This document shows positions 1,570 through 10,203 of a DNA stretch of 24,386 nt, piece by piece (the stretch's first letter is position 1; each line of letters opens with the position of its first letter). Both the position numbers and the translations under genes were made by a program. The stretch is from positions 1 through 24,386 of IMG/VR virus record IMGVR_UViG_3300040751_004612; one strand, 5' to 3'. The notes beneath the pieces were generated by a model. That model worked only from the letters and a program-made list of their open reading frames with translations, searched no databases and was not told the DNA's origin. The stretch is from a virus.

Positions 1570-4293
1570 TTACTGGCTGTCAGCAACTGACTGGTTGGAG
1601 TCTTTGATTTTCTTGGTCAATCCGTTCAGTCCAACTAGCTGCATATTCATCTGTCTGAGTTGTGAAAGTATCGCTTCCTGTAAATCTGAATTTCCTTGGC
1701 CCAATCCCATGACTTGATCTTGCTCACCTTGTGACAATGTTCCATCTGAAGCCAGTGATTTGGCAGCGTTTTTGGCTTGTTCTTCAAGGGTTTTAGCAGG
1801 AGAGGCAGGTGTTGATGTTTTTGGTTGCACATCTGTGTTATTACCTGCAGATGCCAACACCAAGGGAGCGGTTGATGCTGATTTTTTGTCTTTCAGCATG
1901 TCAGGCATCAGTTCCTCAACTACCTGATCTGATGCTGCTTTTGCTTCTGCTTTGGCTTCTGGTGTTACTGGTTGTTTTTCTTGTGGTTTGGTTTCTTCTG
2001 GTGTTTTTTCAGTTTTTGTATCTTTTTCAATTTTCGCTAGTTGTGCTTTGACTGCTGCCAGGTCTGCTTCATTAAGATCATCGTCTGCAATTATTGCTTT
2101 TAGCTGATCAACGTCTTTTGTTTTTTCCAATTTTTCCTGATCTATTTTGCTTTTGCCCAGCAGGTTTTTATCATACAGTCCACTTTCTTCAGCGGCTTCC
2201 ATGGCTTTTTCATCCGGAGAGTCACCAAAGAAGTAGCTGGCCAAGAAACCACTAATTGCTGCAACCAATGCAGTTATTCCTACTCCCAGTGCTGTTACTG
2301 GTGCAACCAGGGCAATTAGCGGTGCAAGAATTAAACCCAAACCACCAATTGCTACACCTATCCCAGCAGGGCCAGTAAAGAAATCCATGAATCCCTGTTT
2401 GATGTATTCCCAAATACCGTTAAGAGCAGGCATTACTACAGTGTTTATACCATCAATTAATGCAGGTTTTATGTTGTTTTCCCAGCCTTCCATTATGATC
2501 TTTTTAATTTCTGCTATGGGATCATCTGCACTGGATATACGTTCAATTAAACCAGAAATTGTGTCTGCCATGCTTTGAATCATGGGCTGCAAGTAATTGC
2601 GTATTCCGTCTGCTAATCCTTCTGTGCTTGGTCCCAGCGCATTTTTAAATGTATCAGAAATTTGTTTCATGGCATCTCTGAGCACACCCATGACACTTGA
2701 TTCTCTTTTTAAGTTTGCCGCTTGCTCATCAGTTAATTCATTTACGTCTTTGATTGCTACTGCCATGTTTTCTGTTTTGCCAGTTACTGAATTAAACACT
2801 TCTTGCATTTTGGTCATGCGTTTGCCATTTTGGTCTATCAGAAAACCTTCTGCATCTCTGGCCGCTGCACCCACTGTGAACGCATCAGCAAGTGCTTCCA
2901 TGGGCTGACTAAATGCACCCATGATGTTTGTAAATCCACCCTGTATTGCACCCTTAAATGTGGCAAAGCTGTTCTCAAACACTGTGGCGGCTTGTGCTAA
3001 ACCATCCAGGTTTGTGCCCACTTTTTCTGAAGCTGCTCTCATACTGAGCATGCCTTTAAAGAAGGCTTCCATGCCAGGACTGGATCTGCCCAATGCACTG
3101 ATAAATGCTTCCTGGTCTTCGATGCTCATGGACTTACTGAGCTCCATGAAATCTCCCTTGAGACTGCCCATCTGATCTATAGCAGCCTGCACAACTTTGG
3201 GATCTGTGCTGTTTAAGCCTTTGTTAATATTCTGTAAATTGCCCAGCATGTCAGTGCCAGCAGAACCCAGTGCACTGAATGCAGTAACAAGTTCAGTATC
3301 GTTGGCAGCAAATGCTATGGGGTCTATGATGCCTGCCATGATTCGCTGTGCTGTGGTTGCATCCAGACCAGCACCTTCCAGTTCAGCAGTTAGTGCTCTG
3401 GATGCATCACTGAAGGAAGCGCCCAATCCACCGCTCATTTTGCTCAATCTCTGGAAGTTCAGCTGAAAATCCAGACTGTCTTTCACAAATGCATCAGCAT
3501 TGCCTCGCAATTTATCTATGCTCTTGCCCAGTAACTGACTGGCTGCAACCTGACGGGCAAACAGTTCCTGACTGTTTTTTGCTTGTTGTTGAGCACTCAG
3601 TTGTTCTATCACACCCAGTTGTGCTCTGAGCTCCAAATCCTCTGCCAACAGATCCACACTTTCAGTAATGCTTAGTCCAAATTGTTGCGCAAATCCGCTA
3701 GCATTGGCCATTTCTCTGGTAAATTTGGCAAAATCTGTTTTGCCCATAACTTGCACTGCTGTACTGAAAGTTCCAATTCTGGCCACAGCATCATTCATGC
3801 TCATGCCCAGCATTTGCATGTCACTGATCAGTTGTACAGTACGACCACTGGCATCATCAAAACCTACCCCCACGTCTGTGATGCTTCGTATCTGGTTACC
3901 TATATTGGCTGTACCGGTAACAATTGTGCTCATTATGAATGATGCAGCAGATCCAATACCACTTGCAAAACTCAGTAGGCCTGCACCAGCTGCCTTGACA
4001 CCAGCAACCAGGCTGTCAGTGCTTAACAGTGTGCTTTTCTTGGCGCTTTCGTTAATTTGTCTCAGATGTTCCAGTGACTTTTCACGATCCTTGTCTGCCT
4101 CTTTCTGTGCATCTTTGTCTCTCTTGGCATCGTCACGTGCTTGTTTTAACAGGTCTTCCAGTTTTTTTGTGTCGCCACCATCCAGCTTGTACATTTCCTT
4201 CAGAACCTTGATTATGTCCTGCATGGTGCTGTCCATGGCATACTCTGGCAAGTTTACTGAATTTCCATCTGGTAATGTAACGTTGGTTGACAT
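1570..4293 (-). CDS. Probable tail tape measure protein (gp29 role)
   Basis: This 907-aa protein probably sets tail length and is ejected with the DNA. The N-terminus (about residues 35-85) is highly charged and predicted coiled coil (KKLEDLLKQARDDAKRDKDAQKEADKDREK). A hydrophobic Gly/Ala/Ser stretch follows at about 95-127. Long Ala/Gln/Ser-rich helical sequence fills the middle, and a long hydrophobic block at about 643-688 (VAIGGLGLILAPLIALVAP...) could span a membrane. The C-terminus has a Lys/Glu/Pro/Thr-rich linker and a final amphipathic helix. This composition is typical of tape measure proteins. T4 gp29 is about 590 aa, so a longer tail is expected. The neighbour at 4387 is a chaperone-like pair, which normally adjoins the tape measure gene, but here it is divergent. 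Start ATG 4291-4293 is preceded by GGAA. No direct gp29 sequence match was recognised; the call rests on composition and context. Confidence 0.75.
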   Translation of the reverse strand: MSTNVTLPDGNSVNLPEYAMDSTMQDIIKVLKEMYKLDGGDTKKLEDLLKQARDDAKRDKDAQKEADKDREKSLEHLRQINESAKKSTLLSTDSLVAGVKAAGAGLLSFASGIGSAASFIMSTIVTGTANIGNQIRSITDVGVGFDDASGRTVQLISDMQMLGMSMNDAVARIGTFSTAVQVMGKTDFAKFTREMANASGFAQQFGLSITESVDLLAEDLELRAQLGVIEQLSAQQQAKNSQELFARQVAASQLLGKSIDKLRGNADAFVKDSLDFQLNFQRLSKMSGGLGASFSDASRALTAELEGAGLDATTAQRIMAGIIDPIAFAANDTELVTAFSALGSAGTDMLGNLQNINKGLNSTDPKVVQAAIDQMGSLKGDFMELSKSMSIEDQEAFISALGRSSPGMEAFFKGMLSMRAASEKVGTNLDGLAQAATVFENSFATFKGAIQGGFTNIMGAFSQPMEALADAFTVGAAARDAEGFLIDQNGKRMTKMQEVFNSVTGKTENMAVAIKDVNELTDEQAANLKRESSVMGVLRDAMKQISDTFKNALGPSTEGLADGIRNYLQPMIQSMADTISGLIERISSADDPIAEIKKIIMEGWENNIKPALIDGINTVVMPALNGIWEYIKQGFMDFFTGPAGIGVAIGGLGLILAPLIALVAPVTALGVGITALVAAISGFLASYFFGDSPDEKAMEAAEESGLYDKNLLGKSKIDQEKLEKTKDVDQLKAIIADDDLNEADLAAVKAQLAKIEKDTKTEKTPEETKPQEKQPVTPEAKAEAKAASDQVVEELMPDMLKDKKSASTAPLVLASAGNNTDVQPKTSTPASPAKTLEEQAKNAAKSLASDGTLSQGEQDQVMGLGQGNSDLQEAILSQLRQMNMQLVGLNGLTKKIKDSNQSVADSQ

Positions 4294-4322: not shown

Positions 4323-4330
4323 GATAAATA
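4323..4330 (+). promoter_or_regulatory. T4-type late promoter element for the gp26/gp51-like genes
   Basis: GATAAATA on the plus strand, 56 nt before the ATG at 4387. The expected start site near 4336 gives a leader of about 50 nt containing AGGAG. It lies inside the leader of the oppositely oriented tape measure transcript. Confidence 0.75.
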
Positions 4331-4386: not shown

Positions 4387-5244
4387 ATGAGTAACACACA
4401 GAATCCACTGGTGGGCTTTTACCGATCGCCCAAGCTGTACACACAGTTGCCCAGTCAGGGAAAATTTTACACAGATGACGTTGTGGAATTTCCCAGAGAA
4501 ACCGGAGAGCTACCAGTGTATGCAATGACTGCCAGGGACGAGATGATCATGAAAAATCCTGATGCCTTGCTGAACGGCGAAGCTGTGGCACAGGTTATCA
4601 GTAGTTGTGTGCCTGCTGTGAAAAAGCCCAGACAAATGATCAGCAACGACATTGACACACTGTTATTGGCTATTCAATCTGCCACAAATGGTGACGAAAT
4701 CAACATCAATGCAAACTGTCCAGAATGCAACGCAGAAACAGGCGGCATTGCCAGTATAGAAGCCTGCTTGGACACCATGACTTTACTCAAAGAAACATAC
4801 GAGTTTAAATCTGATTCTGGCTTGCTGATTGAAGTCAGACCTTTCAGTTATGAAAGCACAGTGAAAGCAGGTATTGCCAACTTCCAGAGCACTCGCAGTT
4901 TACAAAGCCTGGCAAACATAGAAGACGAACTGGAACAACTCCGTGCATTCAATGACAACTTCATGAAGATTGCCACACTTAATTTTGAACTGATAATTGA
5001 CAGTGTGGCCAGTGTAAAAGGCAAAACTCCAGATGGTGAAGAATTTTTGGTAACTGATCGTGCCAGTATCCAGGAGTTCATGGAAAACTGTGACGCACAG
5101 ATAGGCAAAGCAGTGGAAGCCAAGATTGACGAAGTAAACAAAATTGGTGCAAACAAAACCATCCAGCTGAAATGCGAAGAATGCGAAGCTGAATTCCCCC
5201 AAACAATCAATTTTGATCCTGTAAATTTTTTCACGGCTTCTTAG
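4387..5244 (+). CDS. 26: gp26-like baseplate hub/tail assembly chaperone, upstream frame of a frameshift pair
   Basis: A 285-aa protein starting at ATG 4387 behind a good AGGAG (4377-4381, 5-nt spacing). The segment VYAMTARDEMIMKNPDALLNGEAV, a following helical part, and a cysteine pair C111-x2-C114 resemble the T4 gp26-type proteins of marine T4-like phages. A second pair C263-x2-C266 near the C-terminus could complete a four-Cys zinc site. The gene ends at TAG 5242-5244, just after the run AAATTTTTTC. The next reading frame (-1) is open across the stop and continues into the gp51-like sequence. In tailed phages, two genes of this kind next to the tape measure gene encode tail assembly chaperones (lambda G/GT type), which coat the tape measure during assembly. 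T4 gp26 is shorter (about 208 aa). The gp26 assignment is moderately sure; the chaperone role is inferred. Confidence 0.75.
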   Translation: MSNTQNPLVGFYRSPKLYTQLPSQGKFYTDDVVEFPRETGELPVYAMTARDEMIMKNPDALLNGEAVAQVISSCVPAVKKPRQMISNDIDTLLLAIQSATNGDEININANCPECNAETGGIASIEACLDTMTLLKETYEFKSDSGLLIEVRPFSYESTVKAGIANFQSTRSLQSLANIEDELEQLRAFNDNFMKIATLNFELIIDSVASVKGKTPDGEEFLVTDRASIQEFMENCDAQIGKAVEAKIDEVNKIGANKTIQLKCEECEAEFPQTINFDPVNFFTAS

Positions 5245-5301
5245 CAAAGGCCGAACCTGCTGACATCCTTGCCATGTTAAACAGGTTGCGTCAAGAAGCC
5301 G
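5223..5301 (+). promoter_or_regulatory. Predicted -1 programmed ribosomal frameshift signal
   Basis: Two overlapping canonical slippery heptamers in the zero frame, A_AAT_TTT (5223-5229) and T_TTT_TTC (5226-5232), stand just before the zero-frame stop TAG (5242-5244). A perfect 9-bp stem follows: 5234-5242 (CGGCTTCTT) pairs with 5293-5301 (AAGAAGCCG). Inside it are a 6-bp stem (AACCTG 5254-5259 with CAGGTT 5282-5287) and a 5-bp stem (5262-5266 with 5274-5278, one G-U pair). The spacer is 4 nt from the first heptamer. Slipping -1 at either heptamer gives the same junction, VNFF then HGFLAKAEP, and a 359-aa fusion ending at 5465. Confidence 0.8.
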
Positions 5302-5465
5302 AGAACCTGGAACAGAGCCTGATAGAAATTGCTGTTTATAGCGAAGGTTCTATTTCCTGGTCTGATGCCATGCTGATGAGCACATCAGAAAGAAATTTAG
5401 CCGTCAAGGTCATTAACAAATACAACCAGATCAAATCAGGTAAACAGGTTAACGAGGAATTATAA
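5274..5465 (+). CDS. 51: gp51-like downstream frame, probably expressed as a -1 frameshift fusion
   Basis: From the first ATG (5274) the frame encodes 63 aa (MLNRLRQEAENLEQ...INKYNQIKSGKQVNEEL), but the frame is open back to 5217 and overlaps the end of the gp26-like gene. No Shine-Dalgarno precedes 5274, and that ATG lies inside the predicted frameshift hairpin, so independent initiation is unlikely. The segment WSDAMLMSTSERNLAVKVINKY resembles the short Trp/Glu-Arg motif of small gp51-type hub assembly proteins in marine T4-like phages. Its position after gp26 also fits. If frameshifting occurs, this sequence is the C-terminal 77 residues of a 359-aa chaperone, equivalent to the T part of lambda GT. 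The gp51 family call is tentative; that the frame is coding is well supported. Confidence 0.7.
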   Translation: MLNRLRQEAENLEQSLIEIAVYSEGSISWSDAMLMSTSERNLAVKVINKYNQIKSGKQVNEEL

Positions 5466-6002
5466 CACATCAGGTGTTAGGTACTTCGTACCTTCTCAAA
5501 CTGCATTCATTCATTCCGCTTCGCTACATTCACTCACTTGTTTGATATATTTTTTTTTCTGAAACATTGTGGGGTGTTGTACCTGATATTGGGATATTCA
5601 TACAGATTGTGATGCCATACGAAGCCCGATAAACAGGCTTCAAAAAAATGGTTTCATACGAGTTGGTTCAACCACACTGAAGACAGGTATTTCTGCATTG
5701 CACTCTGTTAGGCTCTGACCTTACCCTATACCTGTATCGACTTTTAATTCCACTCTCAGCTTCATCGTGGAAATACAGAGTATAGCAATGACTGACAACT
5801 ATTAAGACTGAACAAACGTTTCTCTGCTGGGCAGGACGTTTAAGCATCCATTACGGGTAGTGCTCAGAATTGGCTAACAGCAATAAACCTTTCAGTGGTG
5901 AACTATGTGTGTAGTGCTTACTGGATGGAAATTCAACCGGCCCATCAACCTTGTGTGCTGTTTTTTACAGGAGCCATGATGTATTGTGCCTTGACGTGGT
6001 GT
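5466..6002. other. 537-bp non-coding region with many hairpins; possible structured RNA
   Basis: No reading frame of useful length exists on either strand between the convergent gp51-like and GIY-YIG genes. Hairpins visible on the plus strand are: AACAC/GTGTT (5464-5478), AGGTAC-TTC-GTACCT (5479-5493), GAAGCC/GGCTTC (5621-5641), ACAGGTAT/ATACCTGT (5683-5690 with 5728-5735), TTCCAC/GTGGAA (5748-5772), a bulged 11-bp stem AAACGT...TCTGC-TGG-GCAGG-ACGTTT (5814-5841, one G-U pair favouring the plus strand) and a longer-range CATCCA/TGGATG (5845-5850 with 5922-5927). An 8-bp direct repeat GTAGTGCT occurs at 5857 and 5911. A T9 run (5550-5558) has no good stem before it. No tRNA, tmRNA, RNase P or known riboswitch core was recognised. 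Whether it is transcribed as an RNA is inference. Confidence 0.4.
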
Positions 6003-6428
6003 CTATAGTAGTTTTTGCAGAGATTCTTTCAGTATATTTGATCCGCCCACTCTGACATTGATAATACCGTTATAGTATTCGTCTGTGAGTAGCACGTTGC
6101 GATCGAATTGTTCCTTGGCTTCAAGGTAACTGGCTACGCCACGTGATGGACACAAATATAATATTTCCCTTGTAAATTTATCTTCGCCGAGGGATTCAAC
6201 ATCAGCTTTAAGATGATCTGAACTGCCCCAGTATGTTTTCCAGTCGCTCTCTACAGTACCACGTCTTTTGCGTGTTTTGCCTTTGAGAGGCGGTCGAGTT
6301 TTTTTAAATTTTGCTAGTTTTTTGCCTATGTATTTTCGGTTGTTGGTAAGATTTGTGATTAGATATACGAATGCTTCTGTACCCTCTGGTAATTCTTCTA
6401 AAATTTTTCCCTGATAAGTCCATAGCAT
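6003..6428 (-). CDS. Putative GIY-YIG-type endonuclease (SegE-like)
   Basis: A 141-aa protein. The N-terminus FVYLITNLTNNRKYIGKK matches the two-strand GIY...YIG core in its phage variant (VYLI / KYIG). It is followed by a basic stretch (KGKTRKRR), the ESDWKTYWGSS segment, REILYLC with a candidate catalytic Arg, and SYLEAKEQF with a candidate metal-binding Glu. Small proteins of this build are common in T4-like phages and are usually annotated as putative or homing endonucleases; no DNA-binding extension as in large homing enzymes is visible. The start ATG 6426-6428 has an AGG 4 nt upstream and lies 9 bp after the gp46 stop, so it is the last gene of the gp55-47-46 operon. Activity and target are unknown. 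Confidence 0.75.
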   Translation of the reverse strand: MLWTYQGKILEELPEGTEAFVYLITNLTNNRKYIGKKLAKFKKTRPPLKGKTRKRRGTVESDWKTYWGSSDHLKADVESLGEDKFTREILYLCPSRGVASYLEAKEQFDRNVLLTDEYYNGIINVRVGGSNILKESLQKLL

Positions 6429-10195: not shown

Positions 10196-10203
10196 GATAA
10201 ATA
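10196..10203 (+). promoter_or_regulatory. T4-type late promoter element for the baseplate block
   Basis: GATAAATA on the plus strand. The expected start near 10209 is just upstream of AAGGAG (10211-10216) and the ATG at 10223, giving a very short leader. It should drive the 10223-16793 gene block. Confidence 0.8.

Follow-up and report, generated by a model that had tools for sequence, protein, structure and literature searches.

A likely programmed -1 ribosomal frameshift joining a gp26-type gene to a gp51-like C-terminal extension in large T4-related phages

Our analysis of a viral DNA record of 24,386 bases, referred to here as the window, gives us high confidence that one of its loci uses a programmed -1 ribosomal frameshift to make two tail assembly chaperones that share a start codon. 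The majority of ribosomes would terminate at 5242 and release a 285-aa gp26-type short form. On AAATTTTTTC a minority would move back by one base, probably aided by a downstream RNA stem, and these would read on in the -1 frame to produce a minor 359-aa long form equivalent to gp51. As the tail is assembled, the short and long forms would then load together on the tape measure or hub, like gpG and gpGT of lambda. A -1 frameshift had already been proposed here by the first-pass annotation, and the sequence evidence from the reading frames, the heptamers, their conservation, the codon selection and the stem supports that proposal. The occurrence of slippage, its efficiency and ratio, and the chaperone activity of the products are what we infer by analogy with lambda G/GT, a T4 review (PMC3004832) and the chaperone assignment in T4-like phages.

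The first gene, ORF A, occupies 4387-5244 (+), is preceded by an AGGAG ribosome site and encodes 285 aa up to the stop TAG at 5242-5244; its zero-frame 3' end reads ...GAT CCT GTA AAT TTT TTC ACG GCT TCT TAG. The -1 frame, ORF B (5217-5465, +), is open from 5217, directly after a TGA at 5214-5216, to a stop at 5463-5465, and the two frames overlap by 28 nt. Within this overlap of -1-related frames the sequence AAATTTTTTC at 5223-5232 contains two overlapping canonical X XXY YYZ heptamers, both in phase, A AAT TTT at 5223-5229 (+) and T TTT TTC at 5226-5232 (+). This decamer has a single occurrence in the 24.4-kb record, where the reversed control sequence is absent. Slipping on either heptamer would give the identical junction VNFF-HGFLAK (...DPVNFF-HGFLAK... 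in the predicted 359-aa product), with ORF B expressed from about 5233. These readings agree in full with the earlier description of the locus, in which the downstream frame was exactly -1 and open from 5217 with two heptamers in a 28-nt overlap, a perfect 9-bp stem with two nested stems inside it began 4 nt after the first heptamer, and an internal ATG at 5274 had no ribosome site.

The recoding signal is strongly conserved across relatives. The alignment of homologous loci that had been suggested as a check keeps the heptamer and the -1 relation throughout. Each of the 47 close relatives among viral contigs has a heptamer in frame and a -1 ORF whose length is similar. In wider surveys the heptamer and the -1 ORF are kept in all 56 distinct window-type loci and all 51 distinct cyanophage-type loci, two of the latter having a short ORF B only because the contig ends. 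The heptamer is likewise in frame in all 12 jumbo phages, whose protein identities are 23-39% and whose -1 ORFs are 72-86 aa long. The first heptamer is present in all window-type relatives. The second is found in 37 of the 47 close relatives, in 11 of the 12 jumbo phages (T TTT TTT in XacN1) and in 51 of 51 cyanophage-type loci; the other 10 close relatives have T TTT TCC at this position, leaving only A AAT TTT. Clades that retain just one of these overlapping heptamers offer natural experiments to show which of the two works. More distantly, the Rhizobium phages IC12 and RL38J1 and the Aeromonas phage phiAS5 have T TTT TTC or T TTT TTG together with a -1 ORF. In one relative (L013, 1570-2512) ORF A has lost its zero-frame stop and continues for another nine codons; the slip site and the -1 ORF are kept, with the heptamer 43 nt ahead of the displaced stop.

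One could ask whether the two frames are simply one longer gene that was split by a frameshift mutation or an assembly error, given that T4 encodes the homologous gp51 in one uninterrupted ORF. The same -1 arrangement with its heptamer is present in more than 100 distinct contigs and also in finished phage genomes, and we give this explanation practically no weight. Sequencing or assembly error and a mutation in a single gene are both refuted by the conservation of the -1 arrangement.

A second alternative is that ORF B stands as a small gene in its own right, with ribosomes either starting internally at ATG 5274 or re-initiating past the ORF A stop. Database annotations often list ORF B as a separate ORF, and cyanophages have an ATG just past the ORF A stop from which ORF B may be initiated independently. 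Pseudomonas phage Cygsa01 (L076, 3307-3311) has the same gene pair with a TAATG overlap and no heptamer at the pair, which suggests coupled translation or another recoding site there. Against these observations, ATG 5274 has no Shine-Dalgarno motif upstream and is not common to the close relatives. Additionally, several relatives have a conserved ORF B that lacks a start of its own, three of them (L007, L015 and L052) with neither ATG, GTG nor TTG among its first 50 codons. These start-free relatives, together with a slip site conserved beyond amino-acid need, led us to reject independent initiation of ORF B, which we regard as very improbable. As a point of annotation, ORF B is conserved in PA5oct (L052), RaK2 (L057) and Atu_ph07 (L051) and is absent or truncated in their database entries.

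The evidence on the slip site comes from codon usage in 37 distinct sequences of relatives. Only 4 of the 81 invariant degenerate residues of ORF A are encoded by a single codon throughout, namely V279 (GTA), N280 (AAT), F281 (TTT) and A284 (GCT). The first three make up the slip site and the fourth lies in the overlap, and at the other invariant degenerate residues the commonest codon averages 62%. By this measure the conservation of the slip site exceeds what the amino acids require. Double coding in the overlap could be a partial cause of the single-codon pattern, but double coding itself needs a frame switch within the overlap. On the ORF B side, amino-acid conservation among relatives starts right at the slip site (FFxxxL onward).

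Downstream of the heptamers, CGGCTTCTT (5234-5242, +) and AAGAAGCCG (5293-5301, +) form a perfect 9-bp helix around two nested stems, with a fold energy of -27.4 kcal/mol and a z of -3.2 against dinucleotide shuffles. The helix begins 4 nt after the first heptamer and 1 nt after the second, a short spacer that counts against the frameshift reading. Folding and covariation had been proposed as checks at the outset. RNAalifold alone was negative, finding no consensus structure and predicting no pairs in the window clade, and the stem was therefore tested by direct pair counts. In 21 sequences 86.2% of cells were paired, compared with 30-54% in slid versions, and 13 cells were compensatory with both sides changed, mostly from U-A to C-G at columns 19/72, all of these counts being inflated by the relatedness of the sequences. 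When the 3' arm was resampled 2000 times with synonymous codons, the maximum was 159 stem pairs, compared with 163 observed. The stem is thus conserved in the window clade and remodelled elsewhere: in a second clade it forms again with a 3' arm that lies nearer, the stem of Rhizobium-type loci is longer and has 3 compensatory pairs, and some relatives lack the stem or build it from a different 3' arm. Taken with the fold energy, the compensatory changes and the resampling, a stimulatory role for this stem is likely.

Looking at the protein families can help to say what the two products are. ORF A matches Pfam T4_baseplate (PF12322) with an E-value of 7e-15 and 55.7 bits, where the curated cut-off is 24.5, and the baseplate hub family phrog_150 with an E-value of 1e-16; these matches and its relatives mark it as a gp26-type short tail assembly chaperone (TAC-N). 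T4 gp26 and T4 gp51 each cover essentially the entire PF12322, gp51 being about 48 residues longer. The connection of ORF B to gp51 is weak directly and strong through bridging ORFs. The window-type ORF B profile reaches an hhalign probability of 37% against gp51, with a score of 23.2 compared with a maximum of 15.2 in 60 shuffles. The bridging ORF Bs, from a cyanophage and from phiAS5, match the baseplate hub assembly catalyst family phrog_634 at E-values of 8e-27 and 2e-15. This family also matches residues 147-246 of T4 gp51, and the bridge profile aligns with the gp51 C-terminus at a probability of 96%. From these profile links, together with the open frame and its conservation, we take ORF B to be homologous to the gp51 C-terminus and the long form to carry the gp51 C-terminal extension, ORF B being this extension and not the whole of gp51. 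The locus had been described as a gp26-like gene followed by a gp51-like gene; the gp26 part of this description stands, and the gp51 part holds for the extension.

Structure prediction was less informative. ORF A and ORF B were modelled separately, and ORF B is predicted to be all-helical with an AlphaFold pLDDT of 85. A Foldseek search of both models against solved structures, tail chaperones included, gave no significant match, the best VIA-align Z was 7.1 and went to unrelated helices, and a profile search of PDB sequences returned no meaningful match. For these models the fold comparison speaks neither for nor against a tail-chaperone fold.

The frameshift could also be real and its products be structural proteins of the baseplate hub rather than transient tail assembly chaperones. 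Database names and some genetics do place gp26 in the hub (PMC3004832), and the predicted fold is without a match to solved tail chaperones. However, the same T4 review lists gp26 and gp51 among the hub assembly chaperones and notes that gp51 is needed for assembly and is not in the T4 particle (PMC3004832). Tail assembly chaperones have just this architecture, a short form and a minor form extended at its C-terminus, and Vladimirov, Gautam and Davidson (Virology 2022;566:9-15), as cited in PMC10885494 and PMC12846349, assigned the T4-like genes as chaperones. We consider the hub alternative unlikely, though less so than either of the two discussed above.

The predicted pair of products resembles known systems. 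Lambda gpG/gpGT, P2 E/E+E' and HK97 gp13/14 each consist of a short major form and a frameshifted long form, and in tail chaperones of the lambda type the slippery site lies at the 3' end of the first ORF, as it does here. During tail assembly gpG and gpGT of lambda load on the tape measure or hub. The comparison showed no sequence or fold match to their proteins, and the present locus differs from these systems in that the candidate tape measure gene is adjacent and divergent instead of downstream. A likeness in annotation is found in the Vandenendeviridae and Andersonviridae, where the tail chaperone frameshift also uses a conserved poly-T -1 site and ORF B is also routinely annotated as a separate hypothetical gene (PMC12846349), although there the slip motif is GTTTTT and the phages belong to another lineage (PMC12846349).

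Within the T4-like phages, the likeness extends to a shared PF12322 family and to a short form paired with a C-terminally extended long form. According to the PRFect paper (PMC10885494, citing Vladimirov 2022), some T4-like phages have separate short and long chaperone genes, and the Adele paper (PMC12846349, also citing Vladimirov 2022) refers to known poly-T -1 slippery signals in TAC-N genes of T4-like phages. The first-pass annotation was not aware of frameshifting in gp26 and gp51, which these citations indicate had been published, and from the chaperone assignment and the poly-T signals they relay, the central idea is already known. T4 itself differs: its genes 26 and 51 are separate and divergent, and the end of gene 26 (GAG TTC TTT GAG) contains no heptamer, whereas here one gene is combined with a frameshift. 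The further suggestion that T4 gp26/gp51 and lambda G/GT are the same kind of system therefore fits as a likeness and fails for T4 using a frameshift. In a literature search that was thin on subscription journals we found no earlier report of gp26 frameshifting in jumbo phages or cyanophages. To this the present analysis contributes a view of how widely the signal is conserved, a test at the codon level, and clades in which one heptamer has been lost naturally or the stem has been remodelled.

The genomic neighbourhood is of T4 type, with portal gp20, gp46/gp47-like, gp53, gp5-like and gp25 genes in the window. Its closest annotated relatives, large T4-related phages that include Phosso, Atu_ph07, PA5oct, RaK2, 121Q and GAP32, mostly have these genes in the same arrangement: portal(-), structural protein(-), ORF A(+), ORF B(+). 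The structural protein corresponds to a divergent 907-aa gene at 1570-4293 (-) that is syntenic with virion structural proteins of jumbo phages. We tentatively regard it as a tape measure protein and a possible client of the chaperones; it has no profile match to T4 gp29 or to a tape measure family. Between this gene and ORF A two sequences that resemble T4 late promoters (GATAAATA, at 4323-4330 (+) ahead of ORF A and at 4364-4357 (-)) face outward, a pair reminiscent of divergent late transcription in T4; the assignment comes from the sequence match. Further sites of this kind are at 10196(+), 17234(+, TATAAATA) and 1545(-). Downstream of ORF B there is a gap of about 540 nt without a clear gene (5466-6002), and by eye small hairpins can be seen at its start (TAACAC/GTGTTA at 5463-5479 and GGTAC/GTACC at 5480-5492). 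A gene for a SegE-type GIY-YIG endonuclease (6003-6428, -; PF19835, E-value of 6e-35) sits between this gap and the gp46-like gene. Rfam and tRNA scans of the window gave no matches.

These findings correct the annotation of a gene pair found in many large phages, for which databases give ORF B as a separate hypothetical protein or omit it, although it would be the tail of a long chaperone. The recoding signal has been kept over a very wide span of T4-related phages, and T4 itself is without it. We lean slightly toward a history in which a single frameshifted gene is the ancestral state of the T4 superfamily, here jumbo phages, cyanophages, Rhizobium phages, phiAS5 and the window lineage. The separate genes of T4 would have originated when the gene was duplicated, the extension became fused in frame and the slip site was lost. 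If this is true, T4 would be the odd one out and would offer a natural example of recoding that gave way to gene duplication.
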